DNA of 64,000 nucleotides from a bacterium (GTDB lineage Bacteria > Patescibacteriota > Gracilibacteria > BD1-5 > UBA6164). A program made the position numbers and the translations under genes. Of the stretch, positions 54,993-62,013 are shown piece after piece (position 1 is the first letter of the stretch; every line of letters starts with the position of its first letter). Where the stretch lies: the NCBI GenBank assembly GCA_024635485.1, contig JAGXIV010000004.1:1-64000 (forward strand), given 5' to 3'. Below the pieces are notes generated by a model that was not told the origin of the DNA, searched no databases, and saw nothing but the letters and a program-made list of their open reading frames with translations.

Positions 54993-55904
54993 TTATTCAG
55001 CAATAAGGTCGTTTACAATACTGATAATTTCATCCTCGATTTCAACAGTGTTCATTCTTTCATCGATAATTTCTTGAAGTGCAAGAAGCGCAGCAAGAAG
55101 TTTTGTATTATCTGGATTGTTAGAAATCATAACTTCTATTCGAGTAGAAATTTCTGGGAGTCTTTCAGCAGGAATTTTATCTAATGTGTTTTCAAGTCTT
55201 TTTAGAAATGCTTGTCTATATTTTTCTATAAGACTTTTTCTTACTTCTTTAAAGTCTTTTCTGAGTTCTTTACTTTCTTTTCTGAGTTCTGCGTTTGCTT
55301 CAAAAACTCTTTCTCTTTTTTCTAAAATATCAATTCCATTTGATGAACTATCACCAATAATTGCTTTCATAGCTGTATAAGAATCAGAAACAACTTGTTT
55401 CATTTCTTCTTTAATAGCCATTTTTTCTTCATCTGTTGTAGCTGCTTGAAGTTCTATTTCAAGGGCATCAAGTTGTGCTTGAGTATTTACTTTAAGTGAA
55501 GCAAGTTCAGTTTTTTGAACAGTTGTAAGTTCAGCTCTCACAGAGTGAATCTCATCTTTATGTTCTTTTCTGAAATCTTCTCTATTTTTTCGAGCTTCTT
55601 CTCTATTAGCTTCAATAGAATTTTTCATTTCTACTTTTCTCATTTCCATTTTTTTTCTGTCATCCATACTCTTCATCTTATTTTCATGCATATCATCGTC
55701 TTCCATTTCATTTTCATCCATGTCATCTTCTTCCATTTCATTTTCATCCATGTCATCTTCTTCCATTTCGTTTTCATCCATATCCTCTGAATCTTGCATT
55801 TCAACAGAGCTATCTTCATTTTCTTCATGGTCAGCAAATGTAGCAGGTGCTAAGGGAAGAGATAGAAGTGCGAGAAGCATGAGTAATGATACTGACTTTT
55901 TCAT
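54993..55904 (-). CDS. Exported acidic-repeat and coiled-coil protein
   Basis: 303 residues. Signal peptide (KKSVSLLMLLALLSLPLAPA, cleaved after TFA), then an acidic block with three and a half copies of a ten-residue repeat DMDENEMEED, and a long charged helical domain (about 90-300) rich in Lys, Glu and Arg, likely coiled coil. The acidic linker resembles the MDDEAMDD linker of the SLH/fasciclin protein. The repeat may bind divalent cations. Only two glycines, neither TGA. Function unknown. Confidence 0.78.
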   Translation of the reverse strand: MKKSVSLLMLLALLSLPLAPATFADHEENEDSSVEMQDSEDMDENEMEEDDMDENEMEEDDMDENEMEDDDMHENKMKSMDDRKKMEMRKVEMKNSIEANREEARKNREDFRKEHKDEIHSVRAELTTVQKTELASLKVNTQAQLDALEIELQAATTDEEKMAIKEEMKQVVSDSYTAMKAIIGDSSSNGIDILEKRERVFEANAELRKESKELRKDFKEVRKSLIEKYRQAFLKRLENTLDKIPAERLPEISTRIEVMISNNPDNTKLLAALLALQEIIDERMNTVEIEDEIISIVNDLIAE

Positions 55905-57261: not shown

Positions 57262-58527
57262 ATGTATTTTATAGATCAAATCAAAGGACAATATATGTCT
57301 TCAATTATTTCTCCTTTAGAAAAGCAAAGTGCTCAAAATCTAGATTCACAAAATAAAACCCCAGAAAAAAAAGAAAAAAAAGTTGAGAATCCAAAAACGC
57401 TCAGAGATGAAGCACTCAGTTTTGGAAAAGCTGTAGAAGATGATGCAGAAAGTGCAGTGAATCAACTTGGGAGAATTAAATGAGAAAAACAAAATGAAGA
57501 AACATTAACATATTGAGAGAAAATTCCTGAATTAGATACAAATTGAGATGTTATTACATGAGAATGAAATGAAAAAAATAATGAAAAAAATGATTGAGTT
57601 TCAAAAAATCCATCAGAAAAAACAAGCGAAAATTCAGAAGAAGTTGTTGAACTGTGAAAATTGGAAGCAATTACAAGTGCTAAACTCGTAAAAGAACTAC
57701 AAGCAAAGTATTGAAAAGAAAAAACTGCAACTTTTACAGAAATGATTCAAGAAATGAAAGATTCTTGAAAAATAATTCCTGATTCAATGGAGGCTATTGA
57801 AGCAATGCTTGAAGATTATATAGCAAAAAAAGAAGCTTTAGAGCTAAGAAATGAAGACCCAACGAAACCTTTAGAAGAGTGAGTTGTAAGAGAAGCTGCA
57901 TCAAATGTATTACAAAATGGATCTCCTGATCAAATGAAATCTTATAATACTCCATCTGAATCTTGAAAAAATGTTGATTTTGCTCCAGGAAATGCATCTC
58001 AAGATATATGACAATTAACGGACGCTATTTCTAATGCACCAAATGAAAAGGCAAGAGTATTTTTGGAAGCTGCAAAAAGAATGATTTGAAAAGATGAAAC
58101 TCAAGATAGAGCAGAACTCAAAAGTTTTCTTTGATTTGATCCTAAATCAACACCTTGGTGTAAATGATTTACGAACGCTTGTGCGAAAGAAGCTGGTATT
58201 TCATTAGCAAGTGCAGGTTCATTATATTCACGAGCTTGAGCAAATGATTGAGAAAAAAGAAGAATTCCATGAGAAAAACCACTTCCAGGAGATATTGTAA
58301 TTGTTGAAAGAGCAGGTTCTGCAGGTTGAGCTCCAGCTGGTCATATTTGAATTTTTGTTTGAATGAGTCCAAATTGAAAACCAATTATAGTTTGATGAAA
58401 CCAAGGATGATCGAGAGAATGAGGAGGATGAGTAACTATTTCTGAGGAAAGAAGACCAATTGTTTCAATTAACAATGTTTCTTGAGCAAGGACTTCCTCT
58501 GAATCTTTAAACAGAGCTATGTCATAA
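57262..58527 (+). CDS. Putative peptidoglycan hydrolase, CHAP/NlpC-P60-like domain (TIGR02594-like)
   Basis: 421 residues. The first 20 (MYFIDQIKGQYMSSIISPLE) match those of the next gene; there is no classical signal peptide. A long acidic Asn/Glu-rich region with TGA glycines follows. The C-terminal domain (about 270-415) has DPKSTPWCKGFTNACAKEAG (Cys near 300), PLPGDIVIVERAG, GHIGIFVGM (His near 361) and IIVGGNQGG, the Cys-His-Asn pattern of phage-type amidases/endopeptidases. It would cut peptidoglycan peptides, either self or of another cell. An alternative start is ATG 57295. Confidence 0.82.
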
Positions 58528-58545
58528 TATTTGCACCAAAAACTA

Positions 58546-58579
58546 AAAAATGATATCCTTAGAGGGATATTATTTTTTT
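58546..58579 (+). terminator. Intrinsic terminator between the two lytic genes
   Basis: TGATATCC-TTAGA-GGGATATTA with A- and T-runs, 62 bases between genes. Confidence 0.7.
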
Positions 58580-58589
58580 ATACATTTTT

Positions 58590-61277
58590 ATGTATTTTAT
58601 TACACAAATAAAGTCTCAGTTTTTAAGAAATCTAGTTAATTATCAAGATACTCTTTCTGAATCTACTGCATGAAATGGTCCTACCCAACCAGCTGAATCA
58701 ACTCCTTCACCAACTGATATTCAAAATCCTGCTCTTTCTCCAGAAATGCAAGAAAGAATTAACTCACTTCAAGCTGAATTAGATGGACTGAAACTTGAAA
58801 GAAGATTTCTCGTTCCTCAAATTACGAAGATTTGAAATTTTCTAGAGCAAGTTGAAGCGGGAAAATTCCCTGACCTTAGTCCAGATGATATAGAATTTAA
58901 AGAGATGCTCGGAAAACATGAAAAGAAAATTGAAAGTTTAAAAATTTTAGCGACTGAGTGAAAAGATATCGAGATGCTTATAAATCAAGCACTGTCAGAA
59001 CTATCTAAAGATATTCAAAAAGAAACTGTCGGAATGAACTGAAACAGTGAATGAGTCAATACATTTGTTACTGCAAATGAAAATGCTGAAGTAAAATCTT
59101 TTTCAAGTGAGAATACACTTTGAGACGTAACAGAAAGAGTTTTCACTACAGAAGATATTCCTGTACTTGAAGAAAAATTGAATACAGAAAAAATGCAATT
59201 TAGAAAAGTGTTTTTTGAAGATATTCTTAAAGAACCTGACACGGGAAAACCTTTATCTGAATATAAGAATAATGAAGTGGTTACAGCCTTTGAATGAGTT
59301 TTAGAGGATGGAAATCAGTTTAGTTATAGTTTATCTGCTATTATTGATGCTTATGAAAATATTAGTATAGAGGAGTGAGTTGAAATTCAAACTCAATGAG
59401 AAGATTTGACTTCTGCTATAGCTTGATATGAAAGACTCAACAGAAATATTGATATTGTTTCAAGGGATATTGCGAAACTTGATTCTTGAAAAACTTTGTG
59501 AGAAGCAAGACTAGAAATTACGCATGAAGGCTTTAGAAATTTGATGTTAGATGCAGAGGGCAAGCTTACAAAAGAGTGAGAACTCATCGCTTCGTGAGAT
59601 GAAAGTCTTACTCCAGCAGAAAGAATTCCTAAATTTGAGGATCTTAAAATGGATCAAATAAAGGTACTGAGAGATAATTGAGTAAATCTCAAAAAACTAT
59701 TCTTGGTTCAAGAAAATGGAAGTGATGTAAATTCTTCAATTTTAGAACAAGGAGAATCATACATTGTAAATTTTTCAGCAAACCAAGAACTTCCAAATTC
59801 AATGGATTTCTCATTTATTGATACTTCTGCAAAAGATATTTCTATAGACGGTATTCCTGTAACATTTCAACAAGATGGTCCTCTTTGAGCTTGATATTAT
59901 GATATAAATAATGAACAAATTTTTATTCAAGATGGTTCAAAAGTTACTATTTGAGAAAAAAGGACAGATTCAAGTGCTCAAGTAGATGAAGCTATTGAAT
60001 GAGCTGTGAGAGAAAGACTTGATAACTTTGCAATGACGAGTACACAAGAACGAATGGTTACTCAAGCTATTATGTCTTGAAATCCAAGTGGTACATTTGA
60101 TACTTCAACTTTTCCTAAATGAATTCTTTGAACTATATTAGCAGTTTTAAGTAATTGGTTTAATGGAACGAATTATACTATGAATGAAGATGGAACTTGG
60201 TCAGAAAATAAGGAGTGAAATTCTGGATGAATGGTATGAGAAAATGGAGAAGCTTTAACAAATCAAGGAGTTATAGAATCTTATAGATGAAATATGGAGC
60301 TTGGAAGTTTGAGTGCTCGTTTTGAAAGTAGTTCACAATGATCAAAAGCATATAATCCTAATGATAACGGTCATGGACCTTCGTATGGAACTTATCAAAT
60401 GAATTCTACAGTATGAGTATATAAAACTTTTATTAGAAAACATGGTATTGCTGAGTGAAAACAGGCCTGGATGGCAGCAATTCAAAAGTTTGGTCCAGAA
60501 GAATTTAAAAAAATGGAACATGATCATATTAAACAAAATAATTATGATCCAATGATTTGAAGAATTACAGTCCCAAATAAAGAAAAATTTTCAATGGCAA
60601 TGCAAAATGTTATTTGGAGTATAGGGGTTCAACATGGTCCATGACATAAAGGTCTCCTTGGTATCATTAATAAATCTTGAGTTATTGCTGGTGATAAAAA
60701 TTCAGAAGCTCAACTTATTAATGCACTCTATAATAAAAGAGAAAAAATATGGCCAGCTTGAATTGCATCAAGATATAGACCTGAAAGAACGGATGCCCTT
60801 GCAATGTTAAATACACTTTCAGCTTCTGAACATCCAAATGTATATGAACAAGGCTTACAAGATGTAGCTCTTGGGACTAAGTCAGTAGATGTACCAGATT
60901 GATATACTACTCCTCAATGTTCTATGGTTGCGAGACAAAATCTCCAAAAATTTTGAGTAGATTCAGTTAATAGATGAGCATCTGCAAGAGCTTCTTTTGA
61001 AATGTATCCGACTGATAAAATAACTGCCTTTCCTCCTGCGGCTTGAAGTACAGCAAAAGTAGCTGATTTCTTTCTTGAAGCAAGTGAAAAAAATGCGCAA
61101 TACGGTCATAGAGTTGCTGCTTATCAAACTTGAGGACAATGGTTTGTATGTGATCCCTATTATGGAGATAACATTAATTCAGTTGCGAGAAGAACAGAAG
61201 CGATTCCAGCTGAAAAATATATTCAATACATGGAGTCCAAAGGTAGAAAATTCTGGTGAGCTGCATATTTCAGTTAA
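58590..61277 (+). CDS. Large putative dual-domain cell-wall lytic protein
   Basis: 895 residues, the longest in the window. N-terminus MYFITQIKSQFLRNLVNYQD, matching the preceding gene. Residues about 65-540 are helical and beta-rich without a known family. Residues about 565-750 resemble the lysozyme-like domain of phage/VgrG spike lysins: MELGSLSARFESS (catalytic Glu candidate), SYGTYQMNS and VIWSIGVQHGPGHKGLLGII. Residues about 770-895 look like a papain-like Cys-His-Asp domain: YTTPQCSMVARQNLQKFG, YGHRVAAYQTGGQWFVCDPY. No signal peptide. More than fifty TGA glycines. Confidence 0.75.
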
Positions 61278-61291
61278 AAAAATTATAATAA

Positions 61292-61319
61292 TAAAAAATC
61301 TCCATATGGAGATTTTTTA
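61292..61319 (+). terminator. Intrinsic terminator
   Basis: AAAAAATCTCCATATGGAGATTTTTT palindromic stem after the 895-residue gene; one base before the next promoter. Confidence 0.85.
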
Positions 61320-61348
61320 TTGACAAACTATTTATTTATGTATTATAG
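61320..61348 (+). promoter_or_regulatory. Sigma70-like promoter for the third cluster gene
   Basis: TTGACA, 17-bp spacer, TTATAG (or TATAGA at 18 bp), 26 bases before the ATG at 61375. Confidence 0.5.
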
Positions 61349-61374
61349 ATATAATTAATCCATAAAAATATTAT

Positions 61375-62013
61375 ATGGTTTTTTCCGATAAGTTTTCTCA
61401 TAGTTTTATAGATGATAATTTAACTACTCCATTTGCTAAAAAAATGGGAGAAATAAATGCAAATGAGATGAAAAGAGATAAGGAAGCAGAAAAAACTTGA
61501 CTCTCTCAAGAATTCAGAAGATTACTAGTTGCTACTTGATTAGCGGTGAGTACTATTATTTATGCTTCAAATTACGTAAGAGCAGAGGAGATACAGGAAG
61601 AATATTTTTTATTTGACGATTTAGCTGATAGATATGAAGCTCCAACTTATAGTTGAAGGCTCTGGGATCTGGATATAGAACAGCTAAAAAATCAATTACT
61701 AAAAGAATGATTTGACGAAGATTGAAATCCTGTTAATAATATTAGTGATATATTTGCAGAACATGATGTGTTAAAAAATCCAAATTTTCAAAAAACTCTA
61801 GAAAAATGGCTCATTTCAATTTATGAAGACACATGATTTGAGTTTAAGTGAGTCAATCTCATATTATTTGTAAAGCTCTATCAATCTATTGAGCATCATG
61901 ATTATTTAGAAGCAGCAAACTATATTAAAATCCTTAAGGAAATATATTCTTCTTGGGTTCCTAATTTTGAATATGCTATTGAAAATATACATGCTATCCC
62001 CACTGAAGCCTAA
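61375..62013 (+). CDS. Single-helix membrane protein of the lytic cluster
   Basis: 212 residues: a charged start (MVFSDKFSHSFIDDNLTTPF), one transmembrane helix near 50-70 (RRLLVATGLAVSTIIYASNY), and an acidic helical outer part. No family recognised. It has its own promoter but lies directly behind the two putative hydrolases and could be an anchor, holin-like helper or immunity factor; this is inference. Its stop overlaps the stop of the convergent Sua5-like gene. Confidence 0.68.

Follow-up and report, generated by a model that had tools for sequence, protein, structure and literature searches.

Introduction

Wall hydrolases have been reported in relatives of the bacterium considered here. 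Vampirococcus lugosii, a predatory member of the Candidate Phyla Radiation (CPR), carries peptidoglycan hydrolases that are described, in the accessible part of the report, as predicted to be secreted (PMC8080830), and the accessible part of a study of groundwater Gracilibacteria describes transglycosylases together with type II and type IV secretion genes (PMC11452946). A shared N-terminal signature is not mentioned in those parts of the open-licence literature on Vampirococcus or groundwater Gracilibacteria hydrolases. Here we describe such a signature on two adjacent and otherwise unrelated hydrolases, P0001 and P0002, encoded on contig JAGXIV010000004.1 (assembly GCA_024635485.1; Gracilibacteria, BD1-5, UBA6164). 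The stretch analysed, positions 1 to 64,000 of that contig, is referred to as the window.

Several described systems share features with this locus. In its sequence, fold and position of the catalytic Glu, P0002 resembles the C-terminal lysozyme domain of VgrG3 (PF21277; PDB entries 4noo and 4nso) and the GH46 enzymes, but it has no spike, its lysozyme domain lies behind the signature, and searches of the family detected no gene for a contractile sheath. P0001 has the Cys, His, Asn pattern and the motif order of CHAP/TIGR02594 hydrolases, although its TIGR02594 score is below the cut-off and the domain at the same locus in sister species appears circularly permuted. Polymorphic toxins likewise combine a constant N-terminus with exchangeable enzymes at one locus (here wall-cutting ones), whereas the constant part in the present case is merely ~17 residues long and no consistent adjacent immunity gene was found. 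The VirB1-type hydrolases of monoderm type IV secretion systems (T4SS) bring together lytic transglycosylase or lysozyme activity and CHAP activity (PMC12102498), as does this locus, but here the activities are on separate, adjacent proteins and there is no linkage to virB4.

Results and Discussion

The two proteins begin MYFIDQIKGQYM (P0001) and MYFITQIKSQFL (P0002), and are identical at seven of the eleven positions after Met. The chance of such a match is ~1.2e-6 per pair, so that a 1000-protein genome would be expected to hold ~0.6 chance pairs over all protein pairs and ~0.001 over adjacent pairs. Four of the seven identical residues are encoded by different codons, which argues against a recent DNA copy. 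When profiles of the two lines (four sister sequences each) were compared, the alignment covered residues 1-17 only (P=2.1e-6), and with the first 20 residues removed the profiles no longer matched (P=0.54). Where a genome has at least two signature genes, these share 27-100% identity over residues 2-12 and only 0-14% over residues 25-60. The near-identical starts of two unrelated lytic proteins, as proposed in the first-pass annotation, are thus confirmed as a protein-level signature. In the form MYF[IL]xQIKxQF[LI] it recurs at the syntenic place in sister species, and the wider pattern, of ~17 residues, is M-[YHF]-[FLIT]-[ILF]-x-Q-[ILY]-[KR]-x-x-F-[LIV].

The conservation and codon pattern look like those of a portable, selected signal. 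The shared start could instead be a functionless residue of gene duplication, the remainder of one copy having been replaced; the genes are in tandem, and N-termini are common break points in domain replacement. Against this, the start is conserved across seven genera while the adjacent linkers retain no similarity, and codons have changed at conserved residues, making such an origin very improbable.

A profile built from 18 starts was searched against 48 genomes of the family. In the window's own genome, P0001 and P0002 were the only matches below E 0.4. Four starts outside the build set were recovered (E 2.4e-6 to 1.4e-3), all at the beginning of open reading frames (ORFs), and three of the four proteins have at least weak wall-related domains: one in G023 (2.4e-6) has a weak LysM, one in G036 (3.8e-4) is a muramidase, and two in G027 (2.6e-4 and 1.4e-3) are tandem genes, one of them weakly CHAP-like. 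Addition of these four and two marginal starts gave 24 strong places in 15 genomes and seven genera, all of one family; the class-wide scan with profile A3 returns its own rows by construction, and testing is confined to the A2 scan and the weak additional matches. The remaining genomes of the 353 in the class gave no signature match below 3e-3, and among 380 genomes across the phylum none fell below 1.6e-3 except the window. A portable N-terminal signature on wall hydrolases is therefore real and lineage-restricted; the motif, sought in other genomes as the first-pass annotation had advised, turns up again in sister genomes and, within one family, in several genera. A search for the start at DNA level with a degenerate pattern was discarded, as it gave many chance matches (53 versus 11 in the control); where its matches were examined as loci, a reading that covered the stretches surrounding them, the ORFs >60 aa that it opened were hydrolase genes only.

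Sister genomes carry the same cluster at the same syntenic place, as tandem pairs or as four weaker copies. The latter arrangement is seen in G002, of the same genus (L140:1453-7568), where four tandem hydrolase-type genes have weaker signatures barely seen by the profile. Weaker copies also occur on large proteins in three other genomes (G018, G028 and G041). Large proteins of 977-1393 aa without assigned function (L141:3402-6332, L143:1464-5642, L114:1203-4157) carry at their start a Q-Y-[KR]-x-x-F form of the signature, and two of them are mutually related.

The domains found behind the signature include CHAP/TIGR02594, VgrG3-type lysozyme, SLT, PF11860 muramidase and PG_binding_1, together with a further type that is lysozyme-like by eye and has no Pfam name. 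In other genera of the family, the signature is followed by SLT, PF11860 muramidase, CHAP-like and peptidoglycan-binding domains, as well as a few large uncharacterised proteins. Even between species of one genus, the catalytic set at the one locus varies. Adjoining signature hydrolases at three loci (L041:10317-10823, L039:4784-5266, L113:8752-9213) is a stand-alone amidase-like domain (CGANVGEALxDFGIDGLP) with no evident signal.

The features of the cluster are listed in Table 1. P0001 is CHAP-like, as first proposed: it reached 26.1 bits against Pfam CHAP (cut-off 26) and matched TIGR02594 over residues 267-384 (E=4e-14), with a score of 53 that is under the cut-off of 70.55. Residues C300, H361 and N380 fit the CHAP triad, with the expected motifs in the expected order. 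The domain order is normal, unlike the permuted versions at the same locus in sister species. An apparent circular permutation was noted in L028:10088-11290 (-), L029:7538-8698 and L041:6900-8534, in which the PxGAIIVF strand that is normally ahead of the GHV motif sits C-terminal, and three of four permuted-type proteins match TIGR02594 as two separate stretches.

Table 1. Features of the hydrolase cluster (window coordinates; translation code 25)
Feature	Position (strand)	Residues	Description and support
Hydrolase gene a, P0001	57262..58527 (+)	421 aa	Signature, long hydrophilic linker, C-terminal CHAP/TIGR02594-type amidase or peptidase
P0001 signature	57262..57312 (+)	1-17	MYFIDQIKGQYMSSIIS; profile-profile match to gene b, P=2.1e-6; conserved in sister genomes
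P0001 CHAP domain	58141..58401 (+)	294-380	Pfam PF05257, 1.2e-5
Hydrolase gene b, P0002	58590..61277 (+)	895 aa	Signature, helical linker, shared middle, VgrG3-type lysozyme and papain-like domains
P0002 signature	58590..58640 (+)	1-17	MYFITQIKSQFLRNLVN; profile-profile match to gene a
P0002 shared middle domain	59646..59969 (+)	~353-460	LKMDQ...LFLV...VNFSAN...GAGYY...DGSKVTI; phmmer 4e-9 to 1e-18
P0002 VgrG3/GH46-type lysozyme domain	60300..60746 (+)	571-719	PF21277, 5.5e-16; probable catalytic E579
P0002 papain-like domain	60897..61274 (+)	~770-895	C777, H840, D855
Third gene, P0003	61375..62013 (+)	212 aa	Hydrophobic segment ~50-68, then AxA-like site; no family

The lysozyme-like and papain-like parts of P0002 also have the catalytic residues expected of them. 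The PF21277 match scored 59.5 bits (cut-off 27), and by sequence the domain matches PDB 4nso/4noo at 1e-8. An AlphaFold2 (AF2) model of residues 551-895 from 17 rows had a predicted local distance difference test (pLDDT) score of 82; the same method applied to the entire protein with three rows reached only 44. The best PDB match of the 551-895 model was the VgrG3 effector domain (Z 14.8, 170 residues, 3.8 A), with GH46 chitosanases at Z 12.9, which agrees with the lysozyme-like domain first proposed. E579 is conserved in six of six relatives, and the alignment ranges make it the counterpart of GH46 chitosanase E19, the residue altered in entry 7c6d, and of VgrG3 residue 827, the catalytic Glu of that protein. 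In the papain-like domain, H840 and D855 are invariant in 17 relatives and C777 is invariant in the rows covering that site. The model has a pLDDT mostly of 75-93 here, and the fold matches are weak; among them are CHAP, LapG and deubiquitinases, all papain-like. In relatives from f2 and g4 this domain sits behind hydrophobic N-terminal signals, which argues for action outside the cytoplasm. By phmmer, the middle domain recurs in further hydrolases of the family, whose catalytic domains differ, but it was not detected in P0001, which leaves the signature as the sole visible common part of the two window genes.

We favour the reading, with a probability of about 0.6, that both genes belong to a lineage-specific, domain-swapped hydrolase set of one code-25 Gracilibacteria family, in which each signature member is led by a portable targeting peptide of ~17 residues. 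Next would come a long, hydrophilic linker, and after it at least one interchangeable wall-cutting or wall-binding domain. That the signature acts as a targeting signal is likely on the sequence evidence, and it is plausible that the targeting amounts to export. The peptide may bring the enzymes onto the cytoplasmic membrane or through it, since peptidoglycan lies outside that membrane and the papain-like domain is found behind hydrophobic signals in relatives. The substrate could, speculatively, be the cell wall of a host or prey rather than the bacterium's own. A contact-dependent mode of action, also part of the first proposal, is hypothetical. Some observations weigh against this reading of the signature. 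Helix prediction for residues 2-23 has very low confidence, and the hydrophobic moment of the signature is in modest excess over shuffled sequences (0.31 versus 0.23). Related hydrolases in three genomes (G010, G044, G014) start without the signature and without an evident signal, and therefore it is not strictly needed for the enzyme class; some related hydrolases of g4 and g8 also lack it. What follows the motif in g5 and g10 is a somewhat hydrophobic segment, with a 15-residue hydropathy of 1.5 in g5, so a weak Sec signal is possible there.

The first-pass annotation held that neither hydrolase has a Sec signal, and this stands. No Sec-like hydrophobic core was found at the N-terminus of P0001 or P0002, and neither has a transmembrane-like segment; the maximum 15-residue hydropathy is ~0.3 in both, compared with 2.46 in the clear Sec signal of the window (54993-55904). 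Could the signature nevertheless be a Sec signal peptide or signal anchor of an atypical kind, weakly hydrophobic and with its n-region conserved, following a logic like that of YSIRK-type or extended signal regions? The charge, net positive or neutral, and the short apolar stretch (FLxxL) that comes after it would suit this, as would the value reached in g5 and the merely 1.4-1.7 (15 residues) of some relatives' signals; the lineage also has unusual signals with long n-regions, and with TatC not found, Sec would be the default route. On the other hand, signature starts in the window's own genus reach only 0.28-1.19, no cleavage-site pattern was seen, and the conserved part is a polar-aromatic motif rather than a hydrophobic core. 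We regard an atypical Sec signal as rather unlikely.

Tat export was suspected from the RR-F motifs of relatives and dropped: TatC was not detected in any of 60 genomes, with 11 of 14 controls positive, and the signature contains no RR. Papain-like-domain relatives at L020, L021, L023, L043 and L044 have twin-arginine-like signals (SRREFLKG, GRRNFILGG) despite this lack of TatC, and these are perhaps Tat relics that are now Sec-routed.

Phage-tail remnants or effectors of a contractile injection system would explain the VgrG3-type domain of P0002, the match between P0001 and a baseplate hub/tail lysozyme in PHROG, and the lysozyme domain shared with viral predicted structures. However, the contractile sheath family PF04984 was found in 0 of 48 family genomes, with positive controls (TssB/TssC models were not searched), relatives of P0002 were not found in viral contigs, the domain search returned no VgrG spike domain in P0002, and chromosomal synteny is conserved with housekeeping-type genes. 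An origin of this kind is highly unlikely.

The candidate exporting machines are Sec, a VirB4-containing system and the type IV pilus machinery. VirB4-like ATPases occur in 45 of 48 family genomes and pilus-type ATPases in 47 of 47, irrespective of whether a genome carries the signature; their near-universal presence makes co-occurrence with the signature uninformative and singles out neither. The window's own genome has its VirB4-like gene on another contig (C5), beside ftsA/ftsZ-like genes and with no hydrolase recognised nearby. A check for secretion or pilus genes next to the cluster, as the first-pass annotation had suggested, recognised none. These data also bear on a different role, in which the signature serves as a docking helix or membrane-surface helix and puts autolysins at one site in the cell's own envelope, for example for division or pilus passage, and the enzymes remodel the cell's own wall. 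Growth and pilus passage need wall hydrolases, the ATPases are present in nearly all family genomes, and monoderm T4SS carry SLT+CHAP hydrolases (PMC12102498). Own-wall docking predicts a stable enzyme set, whereas species of one genus differ in the catalytic domains that they have at a single syntenic locus; the cluster is not visibly linked to pilus or T4SS genes, and the VirB4-like gene lies on another contig. We consider it unlikely. Within the favoured interpretation of a portable targeting peptide, a more specific proposal is made only tentatively: the 17 residues may be the recognition signal of an unrecognised export route, or may represent an unrecognised class of signal for export linked to pili or VirB4, and would thereby direct rapidly diversifying hydrolases to neighbouring bacteria.

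The third gene, P0003, had been counted as a one-helix membrane protein of the cluster. Its hydrophobic segment is present, but the membrane helix is uncertain: the AxA-like site that follows suits a Sec signal, and a Sec signal preceded by a long n-region is at least as good a description of the segment as a membrane helix. Among the loci read, an orthologue was found only in G005. Two sister species (G004 and G007), despite having P0002 orthologues that are 56% identical, carry unrelated small proteins in this slot, with no detectable P0003 homologue beside those P0002 orthologues. In most small proteins of the slot, an n-region of 20-50 residues leads into a hydrophobic segment whose end is AxA-like. 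P0003 (window 61375-62013) and proteins at L035, L036, L037 and L140 are small proteins with Sec-like signals behind unusually long hydrophilic n-regions of that length. The slot proteins do not track the enzyme and look exported, so that roles as membrane anchor or as immunity protein are both unsupported; an immunity gene was considered and rejected, given the unrelated small proteins beside orthologous enzymes. P0003 is a variable neighbour, and is more likely an exported small protein than a conserved partner.

The source genome of the window (1.14 Mb in 39 contigs) uses code 25, in which TGA specifies Gly. Its closest named relatives are metagenome-assembled genomes of 'Candidatus Gracilibacteria' (JAHDCR010000003, JAHDGX010000017), and the bacterium is tiny and probably host-dependent. 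Code 25 was used because every gene of the region is broken under code 11; it gives three ORFs, all on the + strand, with 28, 39 and 7 in-frame TGA codons in P0001, P0002 and P0003, respectively. The flanks look like housekeeping genes: upstream are genes that, from the look of their sequences, we take to be RmuC-like and HflX-like, and downstream are presumably YrdC-, RsmG- and RecG-like genes. Immediately 5' of the P0002 start is a hairpin with a T-run (58530-58590), not listed by the terminator scan, and then TATACAT a few bases before the ATG; P0002 may have its own, leaderless transcript. The Sec-signal protein at 54993-55904 (-) contains tandem acidic Met-rich repeats (DDMDENEMEE), which are possibly metal-binding.

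Conclusions

To our knowledge, how enzymes of episymbiotic or predatory CPR bacteria enter their partners is largely unexplained. The signature on wall hydrolases provides a direct handle on this process, for use in reporter fusions, as bait for a receptor, and for listing candidate secreted hydrolases from sequence alone.

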